Shown: piece after piece, positions 1,521 to 19,304 of the stretch
How positions within the stretch are numbered: position 1 is the stretch's first letter
Layout: each line of letters opens with the position of its first letter
Source: Candidatus Nitrotoga sp. SPKER
Lineage (GTDB): Bacteria > Pseudomonadota > Gammaproteobacteria > Burkholderiales > Gallionellaceae
Direction of reading: 5' to 3'
DNA length: 64,000 bases
NCBI GenBank assembly: GCA_003402285.1
Contig: QFXG01000031.1
Span: 1-64,000 of the forward strand
Position numbers and translations under genes: made by a program
The notes under the pieces: generated by a model
The model's input: only the letters and a program-made list of their open reading frames with translations
What the model was told of the DNA's origin: nothing
The model's database searches: none

Positions 1521-1607
1521 ATTAGCTCCCCTCACCAGCTCGCACCAGGTGTTTGCGGAAATACGCCTGACCCTGACCAATCTGACCTTCCCGTAGTAAC
1601 AAAGAGA

Positions 1608-2381: not shown

Positions 2382-2464
2382 CACTTGCGTGGCTCAAAAA
2401 ATGATTTAGATATGTTTTTTCATTAGTTTTACGCGCGTGCCGACGTCCGAAAGTTATTTTTCAT

Positions 2465-3235: not shown

Positions 3236-3390
3236 ATTGTTTCCCCAAGAAGATAACCGTAGTTGCACAATCACAGAACTTCATATTTCTAATTAGCAAT
3301 TTTATTTAGCACCTAATGAAGTGTTCTGATACTTCATTCACTCCTACAATGCGTAGATAAATGCTCGGGTTGTAATTTCTCTATACATAT

Positions 3391-3792
3391 TCATTCGTTT
3401 GCCCACGAACTCAAAGATGATGTAGTGGGAGAAAAGGATTTCTGAGGAGAATCCTCTAGATCAAAAATACACATATTCATCTCTCCTACTAAAATTCTGC
3501 GGATACCCCGATTAATGAGCGGCCTGAGATCACTTGGTATATCTTCCTTAAGCGCTTTGTCATAAGCTTTTAAGGTGTAGCTACTACTATTAATATCTGA
3601 ATAGACACCATACCGACTCATAGCAGCTTCCAATTCACGAATGGTTGCTTCGCAGTCGTGCATACGTGTCTGAAAAAAAAATTTTAGCTCTTCACTCTCA
3701 ATGGTCTCTGCACAGATCTTAAAATCTTCAGCATCATTGCGTGAAATTTCAATTAGATCATTTAGTACTGTTACAATTTTTTTGATTTCCAT
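3391..3792 (-). CDS. DUF2383 (PA2169-type) four-helix-bundle protein, shortened
   Basis: The 133 residues begin like the PA2169/DUF2383 family (TVLNDLIEISRNDAEDFK, then LKFFFQTRMHDCEATIREL). Family members are usually about 150 residues, and the middle part that normally forms the first half of helix three is missing here: the sequence passes from SRYGVYSDINSSS straight to AYDKALKEDIPSDLRPLI. The C-terminal tail after IFDLED is low in complexity and unlike the family. These proteins are ferritin-like bundles often induced under stress, with no firm biochemical role. Whether the internal loss inactivates it cannot be judged. Confidence 0.7.
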   Translation of the reverse strand: MEIKKIVTVLNDLIEISRNDAEDFKICAETIESEELKFFFQTRMHDCEATIRELEAAMSRYGVYSDINSSSYTLKAYDKALKEDIPSDLRPLINRGIRRILVGEMNMCIFDLEDSPQKSFSPTTSSLSSWANE

Positions 3793-4175
3793 TTCTTATT
3801 CTTACTCCTGCTAGTTCAAGCTTTGCCAGATCGTATGTATTAATTAAGACTCTTTCTTAAGACGTAACAAATTTAAAAAATAATTAAAGAGAGTTCTTAA
3901 CTAATCCAACGATCTTTAACACGCCCTTCTTGTAGTTAGCTTGCCTTCGCCTACCTTATAAGAAAAATATGTACAAACAATATGTAACAAGCTCACTCCT
4001 TCACCTATCTTGTGAAGCAAAGAGTGAGAATATAGTTTGCTAGAAAATGTAAATTAAAACTTCGGCAAAACTGACGTTAATGTAGGTTTACATGCCACAT
4101 TGATGTGAATTTATGACATAGCGCATAAATCAAGGGAAATAAATATGACTTGCATCGCTGCAAGCCATTGTTTAT
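3793..4175. other. Intergenic, AT-rich, no gene seen
   Basis: About 380 bases between the DUF2383 gene and the displaced tRNA end. It contains a loose inverted repeat (AAGACTCTTTCTTAAGA with TTAAAGAGAGTTCTTAA, 3846-3900). Just outside the attachment site a hairpin CTTGC-ATCGCT-GCAAG (4149-4164) probably was the original terminator of the tRNA-Met operon. Nothing else is supported. Confidence 0.4.
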
Positions 4176-4221
4176 TGGTGGGTGGTCAGGGACTTGAACC
4201 ACGGACCAAAGGATTATGAGT
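4176..4221. repeat. attL: displaced 3' end of tRNA-Met
   Basis: This copy matches 14142-14187 at 44 of 46 positions; the mismatches are at 4184 and 4201. The longest uninterrupted block is 20 bp (4202-4221). Position 4184 breaks the acceptor-stem pairing, as expected for a copy no longer under selection. Similarity continues leftward through the neighbouring hairpin, so the element's own attachment site also copied the tRNA terminator. Confidence 0.9.
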
Positions 4222-4319
4222 ACCCGAAAATACCTATTTATCAGTGTTGATCAATATTCCGTTATTTGTCAATTTCATTAAAAATCATATAAATACTATT
4301 CACGACGTTGCTATTAATG

Positions 4320-4349
4320 TTGATGGATATGCGTCCGCATTGATATAAT
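4320..4349 (+). promoter_or_regulatory. Probable integrase promoter
   Basis: TTGATG (4320-4325) and TATAAT (4344-4349) are separated by 18 bases. The expected start of transcription falls at the edge of the CCTACA repeats (4353-4371), so integrase binding there could repress its own gene; that is inference. Confidence 0.55.
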
Positions 4350-4352
4350 TTT

Positions 4353-4371
4353 CCTACACAGCCCCTACATG
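4353..4371 (+). repeat. Left end repeat (candidate integrase arm site)
   Basis: The 19 bp contain CCTACA twice, 11 bp apart, about one helical turn. The same 19 bp with one change (A to T in the centre) recur at 14067-14085 near the other end in the same orientation. Paired repeats inside both ends of a tyrosine-recombinase element usually are arm-type integrase or excisionase sites. Confidence 0.5.
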
Positions 4372-4385
4372 AAAAGGTAGACGGT

Positions 4386-5687
4386 ATGAAATGGGAAAAC
4401 TTCACGGCTGAACGAGTGGCAAACTTCAAATGCCAGCCTGATAAGAAGCAATCCATTTATTGGGATGGAAAAGAACCGGGGCTAGGGCTTCGCGTAACCT
4501 ATACCGGCACCAAGGCTTTCATATTTGAAACTGCCCTCAATGGTAAAACCATCCGCATGACGATTGGTGACAGCCGCACCTGGGGTATTGGTAACGCGCA
4601 AAGGGAAGCCAAACGCCTCAAAGCAATGACCGACCAAGGTATAGACCCCCGACAAGTGATAGCGGACGGGATTGCTGCCAAGAAAAAAGAAGCCGCTGCC
4701 TTAAGTGCAAAAGAAGTTCGCGAAACCATCACTTTGGGCATGATGTGGCCAGAATATATTTCTGCTAAGCAGTCAAAATGGGGTGCGTTGCACCTTCATG
4801 ATCATATAAAGGCCATGCAAACAGGTGGAGAGAAAAGAACCCGAAGCCACAAGTTAACTGAGCCTGGCGCGCTTGCTTCACTGGCAACACTTCGCTTAGT
4901 AGACTTAACGCCCGAACTCATGGCGGAATGGGGAAAGGTTGAAGGGGCAAAACGACCGGCGCGCGCACGCAATGCCCGGACCTTGTTGAGCACGTTCCTG
5001 AACTGGTGTGCTGCGCATCCTACCTACAAAGATATCGTTACCAGCAATTCTGCTCAGAGTCCCAAAGCCAGAGAGCACCTCGGAAAACCCAAGCCAAAAA
5101 ATGACGCGCTGCAACGTGAACAATTGCCCGCATGGTTTGCCGCAGTAAAGCATATTGGAAACTTTGTTATTTCAAGCTACTTGCAAGCCCTGTTATTGAC
5201 CGGTGCAAGACCTAATGAATTGATAACCACGCGCTGGATCGATGTCGATTTCCAGTGGAACAGCTTGACTATTAAAGACAAGGTGGAAGGAATGCGAGTT
5301 ATTCCCTTAACGCCTTATGTGGCGCACATATTGTCCACCCTGCCCCGCCGTAATGAGTGGGTTTTCTCAAGCCTAACTGCGGCAAGCGGGCATTTAGTAG
5401 AGCCTCGTATTGCTCATGATAAGGCCTGTGCGATTGCTGGTTTAGATGTGACACTGCATGGGTTGCGTCGAAGCTTTGCCAGCTTGTGCGAATGGATAGA
5501 AATGCCTGTTGGTATTGCTGCGCAGATTCAGGGACACAAGCCGCAAGGGGTGCGAGAAAAACACTACATCCGCCGACCGCTCGACCTTTTGAGAATGTGG
5601 CACGTCAAAATTGAAGCGTGGATACTTGAGCAGGCGGGTATTGAATTTATGGCGGGGCAAACTGGGTTGCGGGTGGTGAAATCTTAA
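4386..5687 (+). CDS. int: Tyrosine recombinase integrase
   Basis: The 433 residues have the layout of P4-type phage integrases: an N-terminal arm-binding DUF4102-like part (WDGKEPGLGLRVTYTGTKAF), a core-binding middle, and a C-terminal catalytic domain. Catalytic residues are visible: Arg in TGARPNEL (about 276), His and Arg in HGLRR (about 360), His in QGHKP and the nucleophile Tyr in HYIRRP (about 397). The ATG at 4386 follows AAGG. It sits about 165 bp from attL, as expected for an enzyme that integrates its own element into tRNA-Met. The protein is full length with all key residues, so it may be active. Confidence 0.95.
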   Translation: MKWENFTAERVANFKCQPDKKQSIYWDGKEPGLGLRVTYTGTKAFIFETALNGKTIRMTIGDSRTWGIGNAQREAKRLKAMTDQGIDPRQVIADGIAAKKKEAAALSAKEVRETITLGMMWPEYISAKQSKWGALHLHDHIKAMQTGGEKRTRSHKLTEPGALASLATLRLVDLTPELMAEWGKVEGAKRPARARNARTLLSTFLNWCAAHPTYKDIVTSNSAQSPKAREHLGKPKPKNDALQREQLPAWFAAVKHIGNFVISSYLQALLLTGARPNELITTRWIDVDFQWNSLTIKDKVEGMRVIPLTPYVAHILSTLPRRNEWVFSSLTAASGHLVEPRIAHDKACAIAGLDVTLHGLRRSFASLCEWIEMPVGIAAQIQGHKPQGVREKHYIRRPLDLLRMWHVKIEAWILEQAGIEFMAGQTGLRVVKS

Positions 5688-5711
5688 AGAAAAAACCCGC
5701 CGAAGCGGGTT
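5688..5711 (-). terminator. Terminator between integrase and exported-protein gene
   Basis: The stem AACCCGC/GCGGGTT (5694-5700 with 5705-5711) and CGAA loop are preceded by a run of A, which becomes a T run on the minus strand. It mainly serves the convergent gene at 5734-6171 and may stop integrase transcription too. Confidence 0.8.
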
Positions 5712-5733
5712 AAAGTGTATACCAGCAGTTTAA

Positions 5734-6171
5734 TCAACTGCCAGATGGTGTACTGGATTTCCCAGCAGCGCCGGTAGGATCCATAGCATCATCGCGGTTT
5801 TCAATTTTCAGCCTTTCTTGATTCAAAACTTTTCCAGATGCTCCCTTATCTTTCCCTGGATTTCCTGTCTGACTATAATTACCTGGGTTATTCGAGGTTC
5901 CGCTTTTAGTGCTTTCACTATGTGTGCGACCACTTGCACCAGTGTTAACATTTTGGTGATCCTTATCATCCCTCATATCAGAGGAGCGTTCCATGCTCTT
6001 AGGGTCTTTTCCATCATCATTCATTTTATTTCTTACAGTTCCGCTACTGTCATATTGGTGAGTTTTATAATATGCGTTGGCATCTGTATTTAATTTTGAA
6101 TCAGCGTGGGCTAATGTTGTACCAAAAACAAAGCAAGAAACAATCACTACACTCTTTAATTTATTTTTCAT
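5734..6171 (-). CDS. Exported low-complexity hydrophilic protein, function unknown
   Basis: The 145 residues start with a signal peptide (MKNKLKSVVIVSCFVFGTTL, cut near AHA-DS). The rest is polar and poor in hydrophobic residues, rich in Asp, Asn, Lys, Ser and Gly, which suggests a disordered periplasmic or secreted product. GGAG precedes the ATG by eight bases. It is the only minus-strand gene within the element and sits between the integrase and the leader region, a usual place for a cargo gene. No family is recognised. Confidence 0.65.
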   Translation of the reverse strand: MKNKLKSVVIVSCFVFGTTLAHADSKLNTDANAYYKTHQYDSSGTVRNKMNDDGKDPKSMERSSDMRDDKDHQNVNTGASGRTHSESTKSGTSNNPGNYSQTGNPGKDKGASGKVLNQERLKIENRDDAMDPTGAAGKSSTPSGS

Positions 6172-6300
6172 TTTTGTAACTCCATTTAAAAGTTTTAAGG
6201 AAAATTTCTTAAATCGACATCACTGAGGTATGCAGCTATCAAGAGTTGTATCCGAATAGTTATTGGGAAACTCTGAATACAATTTAGCAAAGAATATTAA

Positions 6301-6367
6301 AGTTGGTCTGTGCGTTAGGGCACTTGTTATCTTGATTAATAAACGTTCTTCACCGCACAGACCAACT
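6301..6367. repeat. 14-bp perfect inverted repeat with 39-base loop
   Basis: AGTTGGTCTGTGCG (6301-6314) is the exact reverse complement of 6354-6367. The loop is AT-rich. It lies at the start of the long leader before the element's main operon, so it may be an operator for a dimeric repressor or a stem in an early transcript. Confidence 0.75.
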
Positions 6368-6440
6368 GCTACAAATTATTTATTGTGTAATTGTTCTCTG
6401 CTACTTGCTCTAGTGTGTAAATAGACCAAGTCCCTATAAG

Positions 6441-6533
6441 CGCTCTAGGCCTCCTCTTGGGCACGCATTTAGTGGAGAACCTTGGTGTTCTCCACTTATG
6501 CTCTCTTTCTACCCCGACTGAGAGCGTTTTTTT
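6441..6533 (+). ncRNA. Structured leader RNA ending in an intrinsic terminator
   Basis: A 10-bp hairpin (AGTGGAGAAC at 6471-6480 with GTTCTCCACT at 6487-6496) is followed by a terminator stem GCTCTC (6500-6505)/GAGAGC (6520-6525), then seven T (6527-6533). An upstream CGCTCT (6441-6446) can pair with the same AGAGCG (6521-6526), so two folds compete for the terminator arm. This looks like a short regulatory RNA or attenuator resembling the transcription-termination immunity of P4-like satellites. No Rfam family is recognised by eye. Confidence 0.5.
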
Positions 6534-6557
6534 ATCTCGTAATTTTCATAAAATCGC

Positions 6558-6585
6558 TTGACAACTCCAACCTTTAAAGTTTAGT
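6558..6585 (+). promoter_or_regulatory. Possible promoter for the second leader and main operon
   Basis: A consensus TTGACA is at 6558-6563. The best -10 candidates 16-17 bases later are weak (TTTAGT or TTAGTC). Structured RNA begins directly downstream. Confidence 0.35.
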
Positions 6586-6634
6586 CTCCTTCTGTCGCTG
6601 GAATCAGCGATACGGGTGTGAGATCCCGGAATCA

Positions 6635-6667
6635 ATGCGGAAATAGCCGCATCACGCGGCATTTTTT
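6635..6667 (+). terminator. Attenuator-like terminator with competing hairpin
   Basis: GCCGC (6646-6650)/GCGGC (6656-6660) followed by ATTTTTTT forms an intrinsic terminator. ATGCGG (6635-6640) can instead pair with CCGCAT (6647-6652), which would destroy it. The two alternatives are mutually exclusive, as in attenuators. Confidence 0.6.
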
Positions 6668-6695
6668 TCGTCTGTAGTATGGCCATACCCTTTTT

Positions 6696-6770
6696 GGGCG
6701 GGCCGTGCAGGGAGCCGAAAGGCTCACTGGCTCATTGATCCAGCATCTCACCCCTGTACGGTACCCGCCC
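6696..6770 (+). ncRNA. C4-like antisense RNA fold
   Basis: A long stem pairs GGGCGGG (6696-6702) with CCCGCCC (6764-6770) and CCGTGCAGGG (6703-6712) with CCCTGTACGG (6752-6761). Inside are GAGCC-GAAA-GGCTC (GNRA tetraloop, 6712-6725) and a CTGG/CCAG hairpin (6727-6743), giving a three-way junction. GGGTGTGAGAT upstream (6614-6624) is complementary, with a 2-base bulge, to ATCTCACCC here. The fold and sequence (CCGTGCAGGGAGCC, CCCTGTACGG) resemble phage C4 antisense RNAs, which shut down phage genes by pairing near their ribosome sites. The family call is from memory. Confidence 0.6.
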
Positions 6771-6823
6771 TCCCTGCAACATTGGGGGGAGCGGAAATTT
6801 AAACCCGCTACTAAGGAGTAATC

Positions 6824-7333
6824 ATGAGCACATCCACATCCCCAGAATCATCCGCACCAAAATGCCCCCGCCTCGTTCAACTTGAAGATTACAAAAAACT
6901 ACATTTTTCTGCCTCCGATCAAATTTATGATGTCCATTCTCAAGCAGTTGCGGCATTAGCGTTACTCAATCAATGTGAAATTCCTATAAACGTAAGTGAT
7001 GTAAGTTTACTCATACGTGTGTTAACTCAACTCGAAAAATGGCCAGAATTGTGGCCGAAGACGTTGATATCGAATTTTTCCGGATTGAGAGAGCAAATCA
7101 TGGATAAGGCCGCCGAAATTCCAGCCCACTTTGCATACCAACCGCAAAAAAACGAATTATGGTTAAGAATGGCGGGCCGTCTGAATATATCAACCTGTCA
7201 CACTCTGGAATTCCTGGGGCTTTCAGCGACCCGCGAGTATTTCTTTTGCGTAAGGATGACCCGCGCGCTTACTGCTTTGTGGACACGGGGGGTCACGCAT
7301 TCCAAGCATTCGATGGCCCTACTTTTGTCGTGA
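6824..7333 (+). CDS. First gene of the element's operon, zero-frame product, unknown function
   Basis: The start has a good ribosome site (AAGGAG). Residues 1-110 look like genuine protein (QLEDYKKLHFSASDQIYDVH and a helical middle). The last 60 residues, read beyond a run of seven A, look like out-of-frame translation (CHTLEFLGLSATREYFFCV). The coherent continuation lies in the -1 frame (7153-7434). The slippery heptamer A-AAA-AAC is at 7147-7153 with AAA and AAC as zero-frame codons. The gene is therefore either decoded by programmed -1 frameshifting (203-residue product) or carries a homopolymer frameshift. Position after the C4-like RNA suggests that RNA controls it. No family recognised. 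Confidence 0.6.
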   Translation: MSTSTSPESSAPKCPRLVQLEDYKKLHFSASDQIYDVHSQAVAALALLNQCEIPINVSDVSLLIRVLTQLEKWPELWPKTLISNFSGLREQIMDKAAEIPAHFAYQPQKNELWLRMAGRLNISTCHTLEFLGLSATREYFFCVRMTRALTALWTRGVTHSKHSMALLLS

Positions 7334-7434
7334 TTAGTGATAATGCAAGCGACGCGTCGCTGGCAATGACACAGGAACGTTTTGGAATTCCGCTGGCCGA
7401 TCTTCGAAAATTCAGGGACACGCAATTAATTTAA
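7153..7434 (+). CDS. Minus-one-frame continuation of the 6824 gene
   Basis: Entered at the CGA codon at 7153 after a -1 slip, this gives 93 residues with a natural composition (FLLRKDDPRAYCFVDTGGHA, then FGIPLADLRKFRD). An ATG exists at 7159 but the bases before it are AT-rich with no ribosome site, so independent initiation is unlikely. A terminator follows at 7451-7487. No family recognised. Confidence 0.55.
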   Translation, partial: RIMVKNGGPSEYINLSHSGIPGAFSDPRVFLLRKDDPRAYCFVDTGGHAFQAFDGPTFVVISDNASDASLAMTQERFGIPLADLRKFRDTQLI

Positions 7435-7450
7435 GCCAGCAATTTTCAGA

Positions 7451-7487
7451 CCGCCAGTTTGAAGCTGCCGAGATGCTGGCGGTTTTT
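7451..7487 (+). terminator. Terminator after the frameshifted gene
   Basis: CCGCCAG (7451-7457) pairs with CTGGCGG (7476-7482) and is followed by five T. The 18-base loop is long, so it may only attenuate transcription into the next gene. Confidence 0.6.
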
Positions 7488-7508
7488 AAAAAAATAAAGG
7501 GATGAAAT

Positions 7509-8225
7509 ATGGATTTCAGGACTTACAAACAATTTAGGGCTTATTGCTGGCAAGACCTGCAAGTTTATATCGACACTCCCAATGCAAACGCAGCAAGGAA
7601 TTTAAATGTAGTACTTGCGGGAGGTTCGCTTGGTGCCATTAAACACGAACTTGAGATGGCGCTATCACTACACCAAAGCTGCGACGACCTTTCTCCAAGA
7701 GAGAGGGCCGCCGCTGAACTGCTTGCCACGATATCAAATCATCGAGCTATCACGTGGCAAAGAGAGGAAACACCCCCGTCAGGCAATACCCCTGCCCCGC
7801 CTCTTGATGAAAGTCAGGCGGAAGAGCTAGTAAATATTACTAAAAAAGCAGTTGAGCGGTATGCGGCTTTTTTGCCGGATTCAGAGCGGAAAGTATTACT
7901 GGATGATTGTGAATTATTGTTAAGTTCGACGCTTGTCGGAAGTTCCGCCTCTCAGGAAGGGGGATCACCATCCATAGAATCAAGCTTGGATAGCTTAAAG
8001 CGGAAAGCACAAGAAATAGCCCAGAAATTGGGGGAGGAACAAATAGCCAATACCGGAGCTTGGCAGGTTAATTCAAGCAGTATCTGTGAGTCGGTAGCAG
8101 ATGAGCTTGCCAAAGATAGTAGCACCCATGGGAGGCAGGGTCCGCAAAGCGCAGGAAACGTGAGAACAAAATTATTAGCGGGGTGGATTTTCATTCCGCC
8201 AAAAGGAGAAAAAACGGAGGAATAA
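7509..8225 (+). CDS. Hypothetical phage-type protein, 238 residues
   Basis: AAGGGATG precedes the ATG. The N-terminal 75 residues look folded (MDFRTYKQFRAYCWQDL, then helical). A Pro/Ser/Gly-rich stretch follows (ETPPSGNTPAPP), then a helical segment (SLDSLKRKAQEIAQKLGEEQ) that could form a coiled coil. No domain is recognised. It sits in the early region of the element between the frameshifted gene and the AlpA-like gene, so a regulatory or replication-accessory role is possible. Confidence 0.6.
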   Translation: MDFRTYKQFRAYCWQDLQVYIDTPNANAARNLNVVLAGGSLGAIKHELEMALSLHQSCDDLSPRERAAAELLATISNHRAITWQREETPPSGNTPAPPLDESQAEELVNITKKAVERYAAFLPDSERKVLLDDCELLLSSTLVGSSASQEGGSPSIESSLDSLKRKAQEIAQKLGEEQIANTGAWQVNSSSICESVADELAKDSSTHGRQGPQSAGNVRTKLLAGWIFIPPKGEKTEE

Positions 8226-8488
8226 GGTGTTTTTTCAGAACATTCAAGATTACTCGTGAATATTCAAAATTTAGGCACAGAAAACTCAATGTTTACGGGA
8301 CTTGGCAAGGTTTAAGATTTTTATTTCGTGCATGGACTATTGGATTCTATCTGCGTAATCTGACAATTGAAATCTACGCCGATACAACCTCTTACAAAGG
8401 GCGGAATAGACGGGTGTTGATAGCTGATAATCGGCTGGCTACTGATACTCGCAAAGCCGTCTTAAGTAGAAAAAAATGGAATATTGAT
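8226..8488. other. Non-coding spacer before the AlpA-like gene
   Basis: The AlpA-like frame is open back through this stretch, but the translation is rich in Arg, Tyr and Trp and does not look like protein. It probably holds a promoter; TTGATA near 8418 followed 17 bases later by TACTGA is a weak candidate. Confidence 0.35.
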
Positions 8489-8704
8489 ATGACCTTTAAT
8501 AATTTACTTTTCCCCGTGCTTGATCAAGTTACCCGTACAACCGTTTCTACAGAAGAAGCGGCTTTTTATCTGAATCGTAAGCCCCAGACTTTGCGGGTTT
8601 GGGCAAGCGCCCAGCCTGAAGGTGCAATTAGGCCAGTGCGGGTAATGGGGCGTTTAGCCTGGCCAGTTTCAGAAATAAAACGTCTTTTGAATGGAGGTCA
8701 ATGA
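8489..8704 (+). CDS. Small helix-turn-helix DNA-binding protein (AlpA/excisionase-like)
   Basis: The 71-residue product from the ATG at 8489 has a MerR/AlpA-type winged-helix layout: VSTEEAAFYLNRKPQTLRVW (helix-turn-helix, residues about 17-36), then RVMGRLAWPVSEIKRLL (wing and last helix). Such proteins in phages and satellites act as excisionases or operon activators. The ribosome site is weak (GGA). Its stop overlaps the ribosome site of the next small ORF, suggesting translational coupling. Confidence 0.75.
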   Translation: MTFNNLLFPVLDQVTRTTVSTEEAAFYLNRKPQTLRVWASAQPEGAIRPVRVMGRLAWPVSEIKRLLNGGQ

Positions 8705-8705
8705 T

Positions 8706-8864
8706 ATGAAATTCACACCAAAGCGAAAAATTGACCCACAAGCTGTTCAAAAATCATTACGAGAACTTAAGATGCTCTTCGGAGACCGACCGGCAAAAGA
8801 AAACGCTCCGTTGGCGCGGAGCGTTGGTAGTGCAGTAAGGCTAAATCTCAAGGAGCGACAATGA
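8706..8864 (+). CDS. Short basic protein, 52 residues, unknown function
   Basis: The ATG at 8706 follows GGAGGTCA, a strong ribosome site placed over the end of the AlpA-like gene. The product starts MKFTPKRKIDPQAVQKSLRE and is basic and helical. Its stop TGA (8862-8864) overlaps the ATG of the next gene. A perfect 9-bp hairpin (AACGCTCCG at 8802-8810, CGGAGCGTT at 8817-8825) lies inside the coding sequence and could affect mRNA stability. Spacing on both sides supports a real gene. Confidence 0.6.
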   Translation: MKFTPKRKIDPQAVQKSLRELKMLFGDRPAKENAPLARSVGSAVRLNLKERQ

Positions 8865-9166
8865 GAGCGAACACTTTACCACACCATAAACCCAACTCCA
8901 ACTGTGAGCCGGATTTGAGCGGCCTCATGACTGATTGTCAGTTGCAAGATGTCGGTCGCGTTAAAGTTTCGTTATTCAAAATAAAGGACGCACTTGACGC
9001 CGTTAATACCCTGATTATCGGTAGCGGACTATCTATTCGTCTCATTCCTGGCTCTTTCGTCGATTTAATGTGTAACGATATTTCAGTGCTTGCTTTTGCG
9101 CACGAGCAAGCAGAAAAACGCATCCGCGCCGCAGCCCTTGCTACGGTAGAAAGTGAGGCAGCATGA
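8861..9166 (+). CDS. Hypothetical phage-type protein, 101 residues
   Basis: AAGGAG sits seven bases before the ATG, and the ORF is tightly packed between overlapping neighbours (ATGA junctions at both ends). The C-terminal half is helical (AFAHEQAEKRIRAAALATVE). No family recognised. Its place just before the primase suggests a role in replication of the element or its control. Confidence 0.65.
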   Translation: MRANTLPHHKPNSNCEPDLSGLMTDCQLQDVGRVKVSLFKIKDALDAVNTLIIGSGLSIRLIPGSFVDLMCNDISVLAFAHEQAEKRIRAAALATVESEAA

Positions 9167-10600
9167 GCATTGAAACAGCTAGAGAAACGCTAGATGATTT
9201 CATCAATGGCGAATCTCAGGAATCACCACAACCTCAGACAAAGAGTGCCCCCCCCTGGTCTAACTGACGAGGGAAAAATAAAGTGGTTGTCATCGCTTAA
9301 GCCAGTTGAATACGATCAAGCACGTGAAGAAGTCGCCAAAGAACTCGGTATTCGTACATCAACTCTTGACGCTTGCGTTAAGGGCATACGTGCATCCCTA
9401 ATCGAAAATAAGGATTCACCCTTTGAAATCGTTGAGGCGTGGCACGAGCCTGTAGACCTGGGATGGTTGCTTGATGAAATAAGTGAATCGATAAGGCGAC
9501 ACATTATTTGTGAACGGCAGACTGCACACGCGGTGGCACTGTGGGTTGCGATGACACATTTTGATGACGTATTCGATATTGCCCCCCTCGCGATTATTTC
9601 AGCACCAGAAATGCGTTGCGGCAAATCGGAATTGAAAAGACTCATTGGAAAAATGGTATTGAGACCATTAGATGCGGACGGAATGAGTGCGTCTGTTTTA
9701 TTCCGGGGGTTCGATCTCTGGAACCCAACATTGCTAGTTGATGAGTACGATGCTTTTGTAAAAGATGACGAAGACTTGAGGAGGATTATTAACGCAGGTC
9801 ATCAACGTGGAGGCTGTGTTTGGCGCTGTGTTGGCGATGATCACACCCCAAAACGGTTTAATGTGTTCGGTCCTAAAGTCTTGGCAGGTATCGGGGGACT
9901 CGCTCCAACAATTATGGATAGAGGAATCATCTTACAGTTACGCCGAAAATTATCGACTGAGACTGTAGTGCGTCAGCGCGATGTGCCTAAAGTTTTTTTC
10001 AAGAATATTCAATCGAAGCTAGCTCGTGTCGCACTCGATTACGCCAAACCTGTATCAGCTGCCCGGCCAGCTTTACCAGACAGCTTGAGCGATCGTGCTC
10101 AAGATAATTGGGAGCCACTATTTCAAATAGCTCATGTCGCAGGTGATGAATGGTTGAAACGAGCGCGCGAGGCTTCGTTGAAACTGTCTGGTCAGGATGA
10201 AGACATTAAAACTATAGACGTTGAACTACTGGCAGACATTCAAGAAGCTTTCGAGAATACGCGAGTTAACAAGATCAGCTTTACTGACCTTATAAAGGCA
10301 ATCTGTGATGATGAAGAGGCAGGGTGGGCGACATACAACCGCGGCAAGCCGATTACACCACGGCAAGTTTCCAAACGGCTAAAGGAGTATGGGATCAGTT
10401 CAAAGCCAATACGGTTTGGTTATGACGGTGTGCAAAAAGGTTTTGATATTGACCAATTCGGTGATGCTTTCGCACGCTACCTAAAAAACCTCGATTTTCC
10501 GGTTACACAGTTACAACCAAACAAGGACGGGGCTTGTAACCATGTAACCGGAAAAACGCCGATTTTAGGGATGGATGAAGTAACGGAAGGAGTGCTATGA
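9163..10600 (+). CDS. DUF3631-type phage primase/helicase ATPase, frame broken at a C8 run
   Basis: Translation from the ATG at 9163 (ATGA overlap, GAGG ribosome site) gives MSIETARETLDDFINGES and stops soon after a run of eight C (9248-9255). Shifting one base there joins it to a long frame ending at 10600, giving about 478 residues. The long part has a P-loop (SAPEMRCGKSEL, about residue 145) and Walker B (LLVDEYD, about 190), then the DUF3631 C-terminal domain, found in phage and satellite primase-helicases. The long frame alone could start at 9194, but that N-terminus (MISSMANLRNHHNL) looks out of frame and lacks a ribosome site. Sequencing error, phase variation or inactivation are all possible. 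Confidence 0.8.
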
Positions 10601-11025
10601 CACCCGCTGAAATTATCCAGTCCTGTGATTTTGATGGCGTCAAATTAGCGCTTACCCCTGAGGGTAAATTGCATTATTCAGGCAATGCAGAAATGATTGC
10701 TCAATGGCTCCCAACGCTTCGGGAAAACAGGCGCGCCATCTTGGCAGAACTTCATAGAGAGAGCCGCCGATGCAAGGTGCGGGCAATGCTGCAAGAAGCT
10801 CCTGACACTCGCTATGCCTTGCATGTTGATGACAATACTTCAGACCCAGTTGTTTGCGCGGTGGCTATTCGTGACGCTGCAACCTTCGAGCTTGCTATAC
10901 CTCATCATTCCTACAACCCATTTGTTTTAATTGAATTGTTGGAAAAGCAGTTATCGGGTGAGACCCAACCTACACCCGACACCAACAAACGCAACACAGT
11001 GCATCCTGGAGGACTTATTAAATGA
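10597..11025 (+). CDS. TubC N-terminal docking domain-like protein
   Basis: The start overlaps the primase stop by four bases (ATGA). Residues 1-50 (PAEIIQSCDFDGVKLALTPE, then LPTLRENRRAILAEL) match the short TubC_N-like docking fold common in small phage and satellite genes next to primases. The rest (residues 60-142) is not recognised. It probably mediates a protein-protein contact, perhaps with the primase; that is inference from position. Confidence 0.65.
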   Translation: MTPAEIIQSCDFDGVKLALTPEGKLHYSGNAEMIAQWLPTLRENRRAILAELHRESRRCKVRAMLQEAPDTRYALHVDDNTSDPVVCAVAIRDAATFELAIPHHSYNPFVLIELLEKQLSGETQPTPDTNKRNTVHPGGLIK

Positions 11026-11267
11026 CAACACCAAAATTTCACGCCTGTGAACAGCCTGATTGCAATACCCTGACCTCGGGACGGTTCTGCAAGGCGCACA
11101 CGGTACCGGAGCAACCAGAAGAGACCCAGACCTTAGGAAGTGCGATACGAGCAAATAAAACTGCCCAAATGCGCAAGCGATTAGCTGAACTTCGCGGCAT
11201 CGAGCGGTCGAATAAATATGAACAGCCAGTTTTTTCTAACCAATACGAGGAAAATTTACATGCGTGA
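11022..11267 (+). CDS. Small Cys-rich protein, unknown function
   Basis: The 81 residues start four bases before the previous stop. CEQPDC and FCKAH near the N-terminus could bind one zinc ion. The rest is charged and helical (KTAQMRKRLAELRGIER). No family recognised. Confidence 0.55.
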   Translation: MTTPKFHACEQPDCNTLTSGRFCKAHTVPEQPEETQTLGSAIRANKTAQMRKRLAELRGIERSNKYEQPVFSNQYEENLHA

Positions 11268-11562
11268 GTTTATAAAAGTTAATTTAGCAAACTCTGCACC
11301 AGATGATGGAATTTGCCCTGCGTGCGCTACACATGGAATATTTCACAAGCCTACTCAAACTCGCTTTGTATATTGCAAGCACAATCTAACGGGCGCTTCA
11401 CAATCATCTAACAGGCCGTGGAAAGTCTTTTCAAAGATTGAAGCTACCACTTTTCGTGCTGCTGTTCTGCGTGGGGTTTTGGCTGGTGAACTGCGCATCG
11501 AGATAGTACCCGATATTAAGAGCTTGATCATTGATGAGACGAATCATTCCGTTAAGCACTAG
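11260..11562 (+). CDS. Hypothetical protein with Cys pairs, 100 residues
   Basis: The ATG at 11260 is preferred because GAGGAAA precedes it and it overlaps the previous stop; an ATG at 11218 is upstream without a ribosome site. The product has CPACATHGIF and YCKHN, a possible zinc site, followed by an alpha/beta stretch (FSKIEATTFRAAVLRGVLAG). It is the last gene before the capsid promoter region. Function unknown. Confidence 0.6.
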   Translation: MREFIKVNLANSAPDDGICPACATHGIFHKPTQTRFVYCKHNLTGASQSSNRPWKVFSKIEATTFRAAVLRGVLAGELRIEIVPDIKSLIIDETNHSVKH

Positions 11563-11576
11563 CATATATTCACATA

Positions 11577-11637
11577 AGTTATAAAAATACACAGTTTATA
11601 ACTAAAAGTTATATCAATTTAAAAAGAGGTGTATACT
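11577..11637 (+). promoter_or_regulatory. Promoter and operator before the capsid gene
   Basis: AGTTATA at 11577 and 11607 (30 bp apart) and the inverted TATAACT at 11597 give a perfect TATAACT-AAA-AGTTATA palindrome (11597-11613). An extended -10 (TG followed by TATACT, 11632-11637) lies downstream. The palindrome overlaps the expected -35 zone, so it is probably a repressor or activator site for late expression. Confidence 0.6.
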
Positions 11638-11647
11638 CCGTTTATCG

Positions 11648-11713
11648 CTGGTTTGATGAACCAGCAAAAGACGAGCGCCAAAGCAGCCCGCATCTCTTAA
11701 CCCGAAGGTTAAG
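11648..11713 (+). promoter_or_regulatory. Two hairpins in the capsid mRNA leader
   Basis: CTGGTT-TGATG-AACCAG (11648-11664) and CTTAACC-CGAA-GGTTAAG (11696-11713) are perfect hairpins between the promoter and the capsid ribosome site. They may set stability or translation of the capsid message. Confidence 0.5.
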
Positions 11714-11818
11714 CATCAGCAAAACGAACCCATTTAACCGGGAACTGTTGCTGTGCGCCTTTGGGATTTTCTTTTCCTATCGCCAGTTCCAGTTCCTATA
11801 GAACAAAGGAACAGCGAT

Positions 11819-13153
11819 ATGCCAGTAACAACCGCATCAATCAAACAAGAACGACTCAAGATCATCAACCGCTGTGAAGCAATGCTCGATCGCCTGGACG
11901 CCGAAGATCGTCCAATGACGGCCTCCGAGGAAGACCTATACGAAGCAGATATGGCAGAAATAAAAGCTCTCAACGCCAAGCTTGATGAAGGTCAGCGCCC
12001 AACCGTACGAGTCCAGCCATCAGCTCACATTTCAAACAGGCCAGTATTCCCTGATGAAAATATGCCCCGGATCGTCCTTGCACATTCTGGCAAATTAAAG
12101 GCCTTCAGAAATTCCGCGCGCGGTGTTGCAGCAGCTCACGAAACTGGCCGGTTCTTCGCTGCAACGTTTTTGAGACATCAGCCGTCAATGAATTGGTGTG
12201 ATAACCATGGCGTTCGGTATGACGTTATGGCCGCACTGTCTGGCGGAGTTAATACAAGTGGCGGCGCGCTTGTTCCCGATGTGTTGTCCAAGACTATCAT
12301 TGAGCTGATGGACACATACGGATCATTCAGGGCGAACGCTGGAGGCTTGCTGATGAGCAGCGATTCTGAAACTGTGCCAAGGCGCACCGGTGGACTGGTT
12401 GCCTCTTATGTTGGTGAGGGGGTGGCCGGGGATGAATCAGACGCAAGCTGGGATAATGTAACATTTGTGGCCAAGAAGCTGATTGTTCTGACTCGCATGA
12501 GCAGCGAGGTGTCTGAAGATGCCATCATCAATTTGGGCGATAAAATGGCTCAAGAAATCGCCTATGCCTTCGCCCTCAAGGAAGATACTGTCGGATACAC
12601 GGGTGACGGAACGGCCGCAAGTGGTGGCCATACAGGCGTGCTGGTCAAGGCTTTACAACCCGCTTATTCAAAAGCCAAGGTAGCCGCTGCATCCGGTCAT
12701 GACAAGCTTGACGAGATTGACGCCGATGACCTGCTGCGGCTGATGGCTGCCATCCCTGATTATGCGAAAGCTGGGGCGGCATGGTATTGCAGCCCAACGG
12801 CTCTTGCTCTGGTGTTCAATGCAATCCTGATTGCTGGCGGTGGCAACAGTATACAGAACCTCGCGAACGCTGTAGAGCCAACCTTCTTGGGTTATCCAAT
12901 TGTGGTAACCCCAGTAATGGCTGACGATGCTTCAGCTACCTACAACGGTGCTGTGATGATCGGCTTCGGTAATCTTGCACAAGCAGCAACTATTGGAACA
13001 AGACGGGAAGTGCGCGTGCAGATGACTGATCAGAGGTACTGGTCAGAAGATCAAATAGGTATCAAGGGCACTATGCGGCACAGTATCGTCGTTCATGATC
13101 TCGGCTCAACGACTGTTAAAAGTCCGTTCGCCGTTTTAGTCGGGACTACTTAA
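11819..13153 (+). CDS. HK97-family major capsid protein
   Basis: The ATG at 11819 has AAAGGAAC ahead of it; an upstream in-frame start at 11753 gives an implausible hydrophobic leader. The 444 residues begin with a charged helical delta-type domain (residues 1-65, SIKQERLKIINRCEAMLDRL) that acts as scaffold in this family, then the HK97 core (ALSGGVNTSGGALVPDVLSK, then the E-loop and P and A domains; RRTGGLVASYVGEG, KKLIVLTRMSSEVSED). In phages the delta domain is cut by a prohead protease, yet no protease, portal or terminase gene is near. A satellite carrying its own capsid gene could redirect head size or protect its own assembly. Confidence 0.92.
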   Translation: MPVTTASIKQERLKIINRCEAMLDRLDAEDRPMTASEEDLYEADMAEIKALNAKLDEGQRPTVRVQPSAHISNRPVFPDENMPRIVLAHSGKLKAFRNSARGVAAAHETGRFFAATFLRHQPSMNWCDNHGVRYDVMAALSGGVNTSGGALVPDVLSKTIIELMDTYGSFRANAGGLLMSSDSETVPRRTGGLVASYVGEGVAGDESDASWDNVTFVAKKLIVLTRMSSEVSEDAIINLGDKMAQEIAYAFALKEDTVGYTGDGTAASGGHTGVLVKALQPAYSKAKVAAASGHDKLDEIDADDLLRLMAAIPDYAKAGAAWYCSPTALALVFNAILIAGGGNSIQNLANAVEPTFLGYPIVVTPVMADDASATYNGAVMIGFGNLAQAATIGTRREVRVQMTDQRYWSEDQIGIKGTMRHSIVVHDLGSTTVKSPFAVLVGTT

Positions 13154-13159
13154 AAATAC

Positions 13160-13180
13160 AGAACCTCAAATTGAGGTTCT
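13160..13180. terminator. Palindromic hairpin after the capsid gene
   Basis: AGAACCTC (13160-13167) pairs perfectly with GAGGTTCT (13173-13180). There is no T run, so it may be an RNA processing or stability element rather than a strong terminator. Confidence 0.5.
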
Positions 13181-13264
13181 CGAGTTAACTGATGCCCCAG
13201 TTAGAGGTGGGTCAAAACACTAACAGCTTGCGGATTTTCATAGTCTGATCGTGGCAAGCACTGA

Positions 13265-13288
13265 CCCAGTAGAGATACTGGGTTTTTT
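13265..13288 (+). terminator. Intrinsic terminator before the HNH gene
   Basis: CCCAGTA-GAGA-TACTGGG (13265-13282) is followed by six T. It separates capsid and HNH transcription. Confidence 0.85.
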
Positions 13289-13317
13289 ATTGTCCTTAAT
13301 AATAAAGAAAGGTTGTC

Positions 13318-13611
13318 ATGCCGAATCTCAAAACAGCTCGCATCCGAGGTCGACATCTTCAAAGGATTAGAGCCGAACACTTCCGATTGCATCCTCTATG
13401 CGTGCTGTGCCAATCAAAGGTGCCGCCACGTGTCACAGTAGCGGTAGAACTAGATCATATCGTTTCACTAGATCATGGTGGCACGAACGATCCGGCTAAC
13501 TATCAAGGGCTATGCACCGATTGTCACTCTGATAAATCAATCAAAGAGCGCGGGTACAAATGCAAGCGAAAGGTCACGATTGGTGCGGATGGATGGCCGG
13601 TGGCAAGATGA
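13318..13611 (+). CDS. HNH endonuclease
   Basis: The 97 residues contain a zinc-binding HNH fold: LCVLC (about residue 30), catalytic DHI in ELDHIVSLDHGG (about 47-57), Asn in PANYQGLCTDCH (about 60-71). AAAGG precedes the ATG. In cos phages a small HNH protein of this type lies next to the terminase and is needed for DNA cleavage and packaging. Here it is next to capsid and cos-like DNA but no terminase, as if the element supplies part of the packaging reaction and borrows the rest. Confidence 0.9.
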   Translation: MPNLKTARIRGRHLQRIRAEHFRLHPLCVLCQSKVPPRVTVAVELDHIVSLDHGGTNDPANYQGLCTDCHSDKSIKERGYKCKRKVTIGADGWPVAR

Positions 13612-13614
13612 GGC

Positions 13615-13797
13615 AGGGAGGGGGGTCTGATCTCTAGAGGGGTTTGGCTGGAAACCATTGTCCCCCTTTCTGTGCACACCCGCGAATTGAAAAACTTTTT
13701 TTGGAGAGCAAATCAGGGTGAAATAGGGAGGGGGCATTCAATCTCTGCAACTTCATCCGCTCTAGACCGCATGTCTACCCACGCGCAGATTTTTTTC
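13615..13797 (+). other. Two cos-like packaging motifs in tandem
   Basis: Two related stretches follow the HNH gene: 13615-13702 and 13725-13797. Each has AGGGAGGGGG, then ATCTCT, a CTCTAGA block, a C-rich part with CACCCGCG or CCCACGCG, and ends in seven T. As I recall them, such G-run plus ATCTCTAGAG sequences sit between HNH and terminase genes at cos ends of HK97-type phages. Binding by a helper's terminase is inferred. Confidence 0.45.
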
Positions 13798-13815
13798 TCC
13801 ATTTCAAAAAGGTTT

Positions 13816-14000
13816 TCAGCAAATGGCAGGCATTATAAAAAGCCAGAACCACGTCATACCAAGCCTTGCAGCCTAATATCAGGCATTTTTAAAAGCAAAA
13901 AGAAACAAAATAAATCAGCAAATGGAAATTATCTAAATCGGCCACGAGCAGATAATAGCGAGGCTTACAGCCTATTTGATGAAAAAAGAATCAGCAAATG
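13816..14000 (+). repeat. Three TCAGCAAATG repeats near the right end
   Basis: TCAGCAAATG occurs at 13816, 13915 and 13991, the first two followed by G. The region 13798-14066 otherwise holds no credible gene: a 128-residue frame at 13672-14058 is Lys- and Ser-rich and crosses the cos-like DNA. The repeats may serve integrase or excisionase at the right end, or be traces of duplicated sequence. Confidence 0.45.
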
Positions 14001-14066
14001 CTTTTCAAATGGAATTCAAATGCCGAGAACTTCAGTTTGGGCATTCATCAATAGCTAACGGAAAAT

Positions 14067-14085
14067 CCTACACTGCCCCTACATG
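14067..14085 (+). repeat. Right end repeat (candidate integrase arm site)
   Basis: Nineteen bases identical, except one, to 4353-4371, again with CCTACA twice at 11-bp spacing. It lies about 60 bp from the right attachment site. Confidence 0.5.
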
Positions 14086-14100
14086 CGGATATAACTCCAA

Positions 14101-14133
14101 GAAATAAAAAAGGCCTACATCGCTGTAAGCCTT
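14101..14133 (-). terminator. Terminator of the rpoD-tRNA operon, supplied by the element
   Basis: On the minus strand AAGGCTTAC pairs with GTAGGCCTT (one G-U pair; 14110-14118 with 14125-14133), followed by a T-rich stretch. It lies inside the element, and a related hairpin lies outside attL (4149-4164), so the element carries a substitute terminator for the gene it interrupts. Confidence 0.75.
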
Positions 14134-14141
14134 ATTCTATA

Positions 14142-14187
14142 TGGTGGGTCGTCAGGGACTTGAACCCCGGACCAAAGGATTATGAGT
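14142..14187. repeat. attR: attachment repeat inside the intact tRNA-Met
   Basis: Partner of the repeat at 4176-4221. The intact tRNA keeps its 5' half from the chromosome and its 3' half from the element. Confidence 0.9.
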
Positions 14188-14218
14188 CCTCTGCTCTAAC
14201 CAACTGAGCTAACGACCC
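14142..14218 (-). tRNA. tRNA-Met (CAU)
   Basis: Acceptor stem GGGTCGT (14218-14212) pairs with ACGACCC (14152-14146), discriminator A at 14145, encoded CCA at 14144-14142. The D loop (AGCTCAGTTGGTTAGAGC), anticodon CAT (14184-14182) and T arm (GGTTCAAGTCC) are normal. It begins 39 bases after rpoD and is probably co-transcribed. An elongator Met tRNA is most likely; a CAU tRNA modified to read AUA (Ile) cannot be fully excluded. Its 3' part is the attachment site of the element. Confidence 0.95.
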
Positions 14219-14257
14219 AATACTGTTCAGAATACTCTTTGAAAGTACTCATTATAA

Positions 14258-16189
14258 TTAACTCTCGCCGTCAAGAAAGCTTTTTAACTTATCTGAGCGA
14301 GACGGATGGCGAAGCTTGCGCAATGCCTTGGCTTCGATCTGACGGATACGTTCGCGTGTCACATCAAATTGTTTACCTACCTCTTCCAAGGTGTGATCAG
14401 TATTCATTTCTATGCCAAAACGCATGCGTAACACCTTGGCTTCACGTGGTGTAAGCGAATCAAGAATGTCTTTGGTGACATTGCGCAGGCTGTCGTATAC
14501 CGCTGCTTCAATCGGTGCCAACGTATTCGAATCTTCAATAAAATCGCCCAGATGCGAATCGTCATCATCGCCTACGGGCGTTTCCATGGAAATCGGCTCC
14601 TTGGCAATCTTCAATATCTTGCGAATCTTGTCTTCGGGCATTTCCATCTTTAGCGCCATCGTTGCCGCATCCGCTTCCAGGCCGGTTTCTTGCAAGATTT
14701 GTCGCGAAATGCGATTCATCTTATTGATGGTTTCAATCATGTGCACAGGGATACGTATGGTGCGGGCCTGATCTGCAATGGAACGGGTGATGGCTTGGCG
14801 TATCCACCACGTGGCGTATGTCGAAAATTTGTAACCACGGCGATATTCAAATTTATCTACCGCTTTCATCAGCCCGATGTTGCCTTCCTGAATCAGATCG
14901 AGAAACTGCAAACCCCGATTGGTGTATTTTTTAGCAATGGAAATCACTAGGCGCAAGTTAGCTTCAATCATGTCGCGCTTGGCACGACGTGCTTTAGCTT
15001 CGCCGTTAGTCATTTGTTTGTTGATTTCTTTCAGATCACGAATGGGAATGCCCACACGCTGCTGCAAATCAAGCAGCTTCTGCTGTTGCTCGACGATGGC
15101 GGCCTGAAAACGTGAGAGTGTTTCGCTATAAGGTTTTTTGGCAGCCACTTCGCGCGCAACCCAATCTAAACGCTCTTCGTTACCTGGAAAGGTCGAGATG
15201 AAATGTGGGCGCGGCATGCGCGATTTGGTAACGCATAACTCCTGAATAATACGTTCATGACTGCGTACTTCTTCCACCAAACGACGCATAGTCTCACACA
15301 GTGAATCTACCTGCTTGGCAGAAAAACGGAATTGCGTAAGCTCGTTAGAAATCTGCTCCTGCAGCTTGTTATACTGTGCACTGCGGTAACCATACTTCTC
15401 ATAAGCTTTGCCGATTTTGATAAAAAGGTCGCGGATAATCGCGAAACGCTCCAGCGCATCAATCTTGAGTTTAGCGAGATTTGCTGCGGCAATAGCTTCA
15501 CTATCTTCTTCGTCGCCTTCTACATCATCTTCGTCATCCTCCATTGCTTCATCGCTTAACTCCTCTTCAACGATTATGGTCTCATCCTCAGGCTCAATGA
15601 AACCATCGACAATTTCGTCAATACGCAATTCGTCGTGCGTGACTTTATCGACTAGCGCTAGAATTTCAGCAATGGTGGTTGGACAGGCAGAAATCGCCTG
15701 AATCATATGCTTCAGGCCTTCCTCAATGCGTTTGGCAATGACAATTTCATCTTCGCGCGTGAGCAACCCAACTGTGCCCATTTCACGCATATACATGCGT
15801 ACCGGGTCAGTGGTACGGCCAAATTCCGAATCTACTGTAGAAAGCGCCGCTTCAGCAGCTTCCACCGCATCTTCGTCCGCCACCACAGGGGGTGCATCCG
15901 ACATAATTTGATTTTCAGCATCAGGGGCATCATCACACACGGTGATGCCCATGTCGTTGATCATGCTGACAACGCCTTCAATCTGCTCGGCTTCCAACAT
16001 TTCTGGCAGATGATCGTTGATTTCGCCGAAAGTCAAATAGCCGCGCTCCTTGCCCAAGATGATCAAAGCCTTCAGGCGCGTGCGCCGTGCCTCGATATCC
16101 TGTAACAACTCTACAGAGTCAGTAACCTGCTTCCCAGTTAATGCCTGTTTGGCTGAAATGGGTATTTTCTTGTCTTGCTGAGTTGCCAT
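14258..16189 (-). CDS. rpoD: RNA polymerase sigma factor RpoD (sigma 70)
   Basis: The 643 residues contain region 1.1, region 1.2 ([13 protein letters not shown]), the non-conserved insert with an acidic stretch ([16 protein letters not shown]), regions 2.1-2.4 ([37 protein letters not shown]), region 3 and region 4.2 ([20 protein letters not shown]). Length and order are normal for a beta- or gammaproteobacterial housekeeping sigma factor. It directs RNA polymerase to -10/-35 promoters of most genes. It is the last protein gene of the rpsU-yqeY-dnaG-rpoD cluster. Confidence 0.98.
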
Positions 16190-16311
16190 ATTCCGTGGAT
16201 TCCCATTTAATTAAATGAGTTAAAGCATTGCGTGTTAACGCAATGCTTTTGAAAAGGGTGCAGATTATACCTGATTTTGCAAAAACTTTCCGCGCACCTA
16301 TTGCAATACCG

Positions 16312-18048: not shown

Positions 18049-18269
18049 CCTAGCCCCCTCACGCTTTACCAATGCGTTATGCGCACTAAGAAATAATTAT
18101 TTATTGCTTGAACGTATTAGTGACAGATTTATGCTCACCGCAGCTATAATTTCTGTGAAGTCAAAATGGCTGTATGTTTAGGTGGTGAACTACGATTTAA
18201 TAGTACACTTCAACATGATATTCGTATTTCTTAATACATCAGAAATACTTAACATGCTTATTGATTATG

Positions 18270-18716: not shown

Positions 18717-18786
18717 GTTGAATTCAATCTCGCGGAAAACTTAACGGTAGGCTCCGCATCAATGCGTAGTCGCTAGCTGTTGAGGA

Positions 18787-18999: not shown

Positions 19000-19304
19000 A
19001 AACAAACTACCCTTCAACAAAAAATTAAGGGCGCGATTCTACCAAAATATCACCCTGCTTCACAACCGAAATTTAGATGCTCTTTAATCTAAGGTATTAC
19101 AAACAAGTATTGCGAACGCCTGACCACCCTCCCAGTTTTTATCTCCCAACGAATGAACTTCATGTAATCAGTTTTTTATTATGCAGAAGGCTGCTATGGT
19201 GTCGGTTGAATATGGCATTTTTATAAAAAACACCCGTAATATTTCTGCACGACGACAATAATTACATTACAACTGGAAACTTAATTTAAAGGGGTAACAG
19301 CAAT

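Follow-up and report, generated by a model that had tools for sequence, protein, structure and literature searches.

The 64,000-nucleotide stretch analysed here (the window: positions 1 to 64,000 of contig QFXG01000031.1, Candidatus Nitrotoga sp. SPKER, assembly GCA_003402285.1) carries at positions 4176-14187 a 10.0-kb element integrated at tRNA-Met. From its gene content, we consider it fairly probable that this is a cos-type phage satellite that encodes a shell subunit itself and would rely on a helper for the portal, motor, protease and tails, in the manner of the Ccm protein of SaPIbov5. The element probably hitchhikes in the particles of other viruses and, by analogy with Ccm, its lone capsid protein likely remodels the capsid of the helper. 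A sequence-only reading had proposed a satellite in which a lone capsid gene might serve to remodel the capsids of a helper, and this remains the best-supported reading, with Ccm as the precedent from which we infer the remodelling. The features that define the element are:

4176..4221, plus strand: attL, a 46-nt copy of the 3' part of tRNA-Met, 44/46 identical
11753..13153, plus strand: ORF (open reading frame) of the lone HK97-fold major capsid protein, with an N-terminal delta-like helical region; likely start ATG 11819 (Pfam, PHROG)
13318..13611, plus strand: HNH protein, of the kind adjoining cos in HK97-like phages (Pfam 4.6e-10; PHROG)
13616..13635, plus strand: cos-like box 1, GGGAGGGGGNNNNNATCTCT, no mismatches, five bases past the HNH stop
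13726..13746, plus strand: cos-like box 2, with one base more spacing than box 1 (spacing 6)
14142..14187, plus strand: attR, inside tRNA-Met 14142-14218 (minus strand)

The two direct repeats (4176-4221 and 14142-14187) are spaced 9966 nt apart and the right copy lies within tRNA-Met(cat) on the minus strand, which bears out the attachment site and the extent of about 10 kb first proposed, although the repeats had been called perfect and match at 44 of 46 positions. Between them, the gene order is integrase, g2 (reverse), small ORFs, a weak AlpA-like helix-turn-helix (HTH) gene, a DUF3631 protein, g9, g10, g11, capsid and HNH; the approximately 500 bases 3' of HNH hold the two cos-like boxes and no recognised gene. 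The integrase, the primase (a DUF3631 helicase/primase-type protein), the HK97 capsid and the HNH gene named in that reading are all present, and only its AlpA-like gene stands in part, the match being real but weak.

The plan of the window element recurs in four other lone-capsid elements (L010, L022, L030 and L043). Pfam was run on 83 ORFs from these five elements (15 from the window; ORFs of at least 70 aa after an overlap filter, edited by hand, with antisense frames dropped and likely genes added; the L010 scan reached 15760 only). As had been proposed, the window element gave no match to a terminase, portal, protease or tail gene, and the set of portal, large terminase (TerL), protease, connector and tail genes that makes a complete temperate phage was found in none of the five. 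Among the 22 Pfam families matched, Phage_capsid and integrase each occurred five times, with no portal, TerL, protease or connector family. Other capsid loci look different. Local hidden Markov models (HMMs) applied to 144 capsid loci, some of which are near copies of each other, found a portal, TerL, protease, head-tail adaptor or the usual next gene in 137 of 139 non-satellite loci (the exceptions being L036 and L093) versus 0/5 elements. This usual next gene, phrog_5707 (of unknown function in PHROGs), lay right behind the capsid in 124 of the 125 loci with at least 600 bases downstream, and in the exception, L060, the capsid is split in two ORFs. Upstream, a portal, TerL or protease was found in 65/77 loci with 3 kb available, and a head-tail adaptor followed in 60/65 loci with 4 kb downstream. 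PHROGs confirmed the HMM seeds for TerL, portal, head maturation protease, head-tail adaptor, HNH, small terminase (TerS) and tape measure.

The capsid protein itself is a clear member of its family (Pfam Phage_capsid 2.7e-35, PHROG 10 1.4e-54). Its AlphaFold2 model, from a 21-row alignment, is modest (predicted local distance difference test, pLDDT, 63) and matches HK97-fold capsids, among them a gene transfer agent capsid (2.3e-7) and the HK97 prohead (8.7e-6). The best solved sequence relative is 9gyi, a "Major head protein" that is the capsid of the capsid-forming phage-inducible chromosomal island (cfPICI) EcCI2 (2.2e-22); against 7rwz, which we take to be the SaPIbov5/phi12 procapsid, the value by sequence was 0.74. 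The host genome encodes a single capsid of the window kind. Nine of 158 family genomes match it at E 1e-3 or better, the close ones being the genome itself and G095, a second genome of the genus (73-74% identical), while the other seven are 23-28% identical. G095 is therefore the sole close relative in the family, and its capsid is also a lone one. At the level of the order, 4/399 genomes match at 1e-10 or better, own included; for two weak capsid matches, G371 (1.2e-11) and G500 (5.1e-11), no protein of the window element matched the fetched stretches at E 0.01. Single-sequence capsid scans of genomes and viral contigs, and a two-row alignment against viral contigs, recovered no relative; the wider family was found through capsid alignments. 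Between the window and G095 capsids, the nonsynonymous divergence (dN) is 0.24-0.26 and the synonymous divergence (dS) is saturated (2.0 by LWL85, no value by NG86 or YN00), with differences of 26/17/60% at codon positions 1/2/3. To judge from this pattern, the capsid is under purifying selection.

The cos-like site of the sequence-only reading is likewise upheld, being above chance (which predicts 0.05 occurrences in the window when up to 2 mismatches are allowed) and at least doubled. The second box lies in a block (13664-13781) that is 82% identical in G095. The 20-base motif is present in 53 IMG/VR stretches, some of which are near copies of one another: in 28 of these the end of an HNH gene lies at most 150 bases upstream of the motif (or overlaps its start by less than 100), and in 5 further stretches TerS or TerL is just downstream, giving 33/53, all on the motif strand, with neither HNH nor TerS/TerL by these HMMs in the other 20. 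HNH proteins assist the terminase at cos, as known from work on HK97. The phage L027 shows the order HNH, cos-like box, TerS, TerL, portal, protease and capsid, and the window order, capsid followed by HNH and cos, is the reverse.

The closest of the relatives, L010, is the G095 element, located at tRNA-Phe, with an integrase and a primase unlike those of the window. Nevertheless, it shares g2 (54% identical), g10 (53%), g11 (76%) and the capsid (73%), together with two non-coding blocks of 80-82% identity, one of which includes cos-like box 2. Both boxes recur, with 1 and 2 mismatches, and are again preceded by the capsid. The primase is apparently of the P4 type and is split by an insertion of the IS5 family (11017-11847), the exact member of which neither Pfam nor NCBIfam identified; therefore, this copy may be immobile unless helped. 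A weak att-like right copy occurs near L010:16393 (18/24, the best reversed control being 16/24).

The other three elements are found further away and are the only ones of the five with TerS and a tape measure. L043 is a complete 15.3-kb island (4008-19344) of the gammaproteobacterium Thiohalobacter thiocyanaticus Hrh1, with a 48/48 att repeat at tRNA-Glu, and encodes an integrase, primase-type and helicase-type proteins, g11, the capsid, TerS and a tape measure of 1322 aa. L030, an IMG/VR virome contig, contains a complete 10.5-kb island (491-11062) with a 45/45 att repeat at tRNA-Val, encoding an integrase, a replication initiator, HNH, TerS, a g10-like protein, g11, the capsid, a 610-aa tape measure and a putative tail fibre (PHROG 11439, 1.9e-46); its cos-like box has 1 mismatch, and HNH, cos, TerS and capsid follow in phage order. 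L022, a contig from a metagenome-assembled genome, presents an integrase adjoining tRNA-Cys, an AlpA-like protein (by eye), TerS, the capsid and a tape measure. No cos-like box was found in L022, nor near TerS or the capsid in L043. Three of the five elements have clear att ends, and the elements of the own genome (G000), G095 and L043 lie in genomes that are nearly complete or on a contig of 3.06 Mb. The presence of relatives with the same gene set beside other tRNA genes in other bacteria suggests a deliberate trick instead of a broken virus.

Upstream of the capsid gene, the element resembles phages in one further respect. A model built from seven phage leaders finds a structured RNA here, which is its best match outside the training set (76 sources, 960 kb, a search that covered part of all loci); the next matches, L023, L196 and L205 (E 0.2-0.34), were taken as chance. 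The leaders are:

11644..11744, plus strand: structured capsid leader RNA of the window, with a predicted pseudoknot (33.9 bits, E 7e-5)
L044 7769-7871: phage capsid leader RNA
L045 5993-6092: phage capsid leader RNA
L046 2410-2509: phage capsid leader RNA
L047 4936-5039: phage capsid leader RNA
L048 3985-4080: phage capsid leader RNA
L050 1400-1498: phage capsid leader RNA
L051 3259-3358: phage capsid leader RNA

A loop-to-3' pseudoknot can be drawn in 9/9 leaders, with letters changed on both sides (arms placed by eye), versus 2/9 in an automatic hairpin search, which chose another P1 in most phage leaders. Rfam gave no match for the window leader (E up to 1), and for that of L050 a weak CRISPR-repeat match alone (24 bits, gathering 39). 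Sharing this leader RNA with phages probably subjects the expression of the satellite capsid to the control that governs the helper capsid. As side observations, the leaders upstream of the capsid genes of HK97-type phages and of the satellite have a conserved GCCAAAGC-like core, and a terminator-like hairpin follows the leader in most phages (by eye).

The remaining genes and RNAs of the element are:

4386..5687, plus strand: tyrosine integrase (Pfam Phage_integrase 1.4e-8, Arm-DNA-bind_3 1e-11; also PHROG)
5734..6171, minus strand: g2, small protein with a signal-peptide-like start (by eye), 54% identical in the G095 element
6581..6632, plus strand: a1/b1 target of C4 antisense RNA (40.7 bits, gathering 46.7)
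6691..6775, plus strand: C4 antisense RNA (43.9 bits, gathering 45)
7509..8225, plus strand: accessory ORF without a confident family (Pfam, PHROG)
8537..8704, plus strand: AlpA-like HTH or excisionase-like protein, weak (HTH_17 21.4 bits, cut-off 27; PHROG 66 excisionase 0.0028)
9194..10600, plus strand: DUF3631 helicase/primase-type replication protein (Pfam 1.1e-41)
11022..11267, plus strand: g10, a small protein carrying a putative zinc motif; the G095 copy is 53% identical
11218..11562, plus strand: g11, small putative zinc-ribbon protein directly upstream of the capsid

Among the capsid loci compared, the g11 gene is confined to this kind of element: its local HMM matches 4/144 loci, all lone-capsid elements, and in L030 it is preceded by a g10-like small protein (by eye). 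In 158 family genomes it matched in the window and in G095, with three further matches that were weak (E 0.007-0.008), and in 369 class genomes in the window alone; a two-row alignment found no relative in viral contigs, and the predicted fold (pLDDT 76) gave no convincing structural match (best E 0.17). The C4 RNA and its target sit upstream of the AlpA-like gene, and the G095 element has a C4 RNA above the gathering score (L010 8138-8220, 52.8 bits). C4 is an immunity-type RNA of phages, and the pair is likely the immunity switch of these satellites. The AlpA-like part is the end of an ORF (8183-8704) with an uncertain start. The g2 product, which matches no Pfam family, is small, polar and putatively secreted, and its counterpart in L010 is at 7227-7661 (minus strand). 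PADLOC returned nine single-member matches.

The preferred account, by which the satellite adds its own subunit to the shell of a helper, would work as follows. When an HK97-like helper infects the cell or is induced, the element would excise and replicate, and its capsid protein, whose synthesis or assembly g11 probably assists, would join or replace the helper capsid protein around the helper portal and be trimmed by the helper protease. The resulting shell, probably smaller, would favour the satellite, the helper terminase would cut and pack at the satellite cos with the aid of the satellite HNH, and helper tails would complete the particle.

Could the capsid gene instead have survived by chance in a decayed prophage? 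The sequence-only reading had held that full structural modules in related elements at this site would make the element a deletion remnant. Two elements of the same genus bear on this: L190 (G103), which is 9.5 kb long, occupies the same tRNA-Met adjoining rpoD and has an integrase 79% identical to that of the window, and L189 (G108), whose integrase is 73% identical, which adjoins an att copy of tRNA-Met and runs to the contig end with the tRNA beyond the stretch. Their 20 ORFs matched 17 PHROG families (integrase, primase/helicase types and unknowns), none of them structural, and their AlpA-like homologues are 67-72% identical to that of the window; elements with the same integrase thus carry no structural genes. 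The capsid leader RNA and the HNH-cos block do look phage-derived, and L030 retains the HNH-cos-TerS-capsid series in phage order. Nevertheless, the capsid precedes HNH-cos in the window and the boxes in L010, dN is low against a saturated dS, and the same module occurs in the second genome of the genus at tRNA-Phe, which together make a deletion remnant unlikely. Indeed, decay does not account for a g10-g11-capsid module that selection maintains alongside differing integrases and primases, and the same absences in all five elements, with clear att ends in three, speak against it as well. We consider a remnant very improbable.

The identity of the capsid leaves more room for a full replacement shell, in which the satellite protein alone would form the shell, nucleated on the helper portal and cut by the helper protease. 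A full-length capsid with a delta-like helical region, 48-63% identical to true phage capsids, would suit this, as would the match of the cfPICI capsid 9gyi as best solved relative, but the element is without the portal, protease and connector of its own that cfPICIs carry; on balance, this shell is rather unlikely. A defensive decoy, which would poison helper assembly mainly for the benefit of the host and take no part in satellite particles, would recall the expression of ccm alone, which cut phi12 titres 10^3- to 10^4-fold according to the excerpts of PMC5052747. However, the cos-like boxes and HNH beside the capsid are packaging functions and three relatives add TerS and a tape measure, which leaves the decoy quite improbable. 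Encapsulins, or other cellular compartment proteins unrelated to phage particles, share the HK97 fold, and encapsulin 9bje appears low in the fold search (1.4e-3); the delta-like N-terminal region, the 48-63% identity to phage capsids and the adjoining cos boxes and HNH leave this origin with a negligible probability.

Several observations weigh against a Ccm-like satellite. No helper was found: Phage_portal PF04860, the only portal family searched, was present in 0/4 host genomes (positive in 4/14 control genomes), and the resident helper prophage that had been suggested is not borne out, which points to an incoming phage or to one with another portal family. The nearest complete phages, with capsids 48-63% identical, are virome contigs without known host. 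The shortening of the delta region fits only partly, by sequence comparison: it measures 125, 127 and 125 residues in three satellites and 143 in L043, versus 142-148 in 9 of 11 phages and 129 and 132 in the other two (L046, a twelfth, was left out because no start was obtained for it). An 82-row quick tree groups the window, L010 and L030 capsids (Shimodaira-Hasegawa-like approximate likelihood ratio test, SH-aLRT, 94), but the deep forks of the careful 20-row tree were unresolved, and monophyly of the satellite capsids is neither shown nor rejected (approximately unbiased, AU, test, p 0.25 for four and 0.08 for five). HNH was not found in L010, whose leader, though in the right place, scores at chance level (13.7 bits, E 0.14), and L022, whose contig ends inside the tape measure, is without g11.

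Other copies of the tRNA-Met 3' part were seen at two loci. In the own genome, one at G000:C9 (L187, 2322-13246) is accompanied by tRNA-Lys and by an integrated element of another kind, which encodes a 735-aa protein; no gene like the window capsid was seen there. In G095, another (L188, G095:C1:536228-536275) is about 80 kb from tRNA-Met-rpoD and about 6 kb from the counterparts of the genes on the left flank of the window element. With these left-flank genes so far from tRNA-Met-rpoD and near another att copy, the tRNA seems to hold stacked islands.

A broader possibility, which we advance tentatively and as less probable than not, is that the family encodes particle-specifying parts only (shell subunit, TerS, tail-length ruler and the putative tail fibre of L030), takes the machine parts from the helper and shares a capsid leader RNA with it. 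If so, such elements would change several properties of the particles of one phage simultaneously (head size, packaging choice, tail length and perhaps host range), and a previously undescribed pseudoknotted leader would let satellite and helper capsid genes answer the same signal.

Among known satellites, P4-like elements carry a P4-type primase with psu, delta and sid, and the C4-type RNA resembles the CI RNA of P4. The tRNA site, the C4-type RNA and the apparently P4-type primase of L010 recall this group, whereas the window has a DUF3631 protein and its own capsid gene, and no psu, delta or sid family was found among the Pfam matches of the five elements or the PHROG matches of the window. 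In Vibrio, the phage-inducible chromosomal minimalist islands (PICMIs) share with the window element an int, alpA and primase core (AlpA being weak in the window) and a small size, but the latter has a capsid gene and sits at tRNA-Met; the excerpts of PMC10803314 describe PICMIs as having no capsid-remodelling gene and a site next to fis. The tape measures of three of the five elements recall those encoded by the phage-inducible chromosomal island-like elements (PLEs) of Vibrio cholerae, in which the ICP1 capsid is remodelled by TcaP. Tape measures of PLEs produce chimeric, shorter tails, but their virions contain ICP1-encoded capsid proteins, unlike this family with its own capsid gene, and putative tape measures are also reported in cf-PICIs (excerpts of PMC12987554). 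The cfPICIs (EcCI2, PDB 9gyi) are alike in having their own HK97 capsid and in the use of helper tails that we would expect here. Like the window element, they have AlpA, primase and HNH genes. They also carry their own portal, protease, connectors and large terminase, and Pfam found none of these four in the window element. They are reported to produce their own capsids (excerpts of PMC11389934).

The closest parallel is with SaPIbov5 and the other cos-type Staphylococcus aureus pathogenicity islands (SaPIs) with Ccm. These are likewise cos satellites; their lone capsid homologue, of the HK97 type, has a delta domain, and no protease of their own has been identified. To our knowledge, capsid remodelling by a capsid homologue is known from this one staphylococcal group. 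According to the excerpts of PMC8569155 and PMC5052747, Ccm is 24% identical to the phi12 capsid protein, occupies the pentamers of small procapsids, has a delta domain modelled 44 residues shorter, is cleaved though the island has no identified protease, and blocks the helper. The window element, with a lone capsid homologue, no portal or protease of its own, and a cos-like box at the HNH junction as the predicted packaging site, appears from its sequence to have the parts needed for this mechanism. The genes are unrelated, however: the integrase and replication genes differ, the window family has a C4-type RNA and the g11 partner, one of its hosts (that of L043) is a gammaproteobacterium, and three members have a tape measure. 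Whereas Ccm is 24% identical to the capsid of its own helper, the capsids of this family are 48-63% identical to those of phages, none a known helper. The SaPI backbone genes stl, ptiM and ppi were not among the Pfam and PHROG matches listed, no search having been aimed at them. Therefore, given a mechanism like that of Ccm, the idea itself has prior art, and what is new is the family, the combination of capsid, TerS and tape measure, the partner gene g11 and the capsid leader RNA common with phages; a satellite with that combination and without portal, TerL and protease was not found in the full-text literature searched, which contains few subscription papers. The same plan with unrelated genes outside staphylococci would mean that capsid-homologue remodelling is a general strategy, and those variants that add TerS and a tape measure would be satellites able to alter both the head and the tail of the particle.

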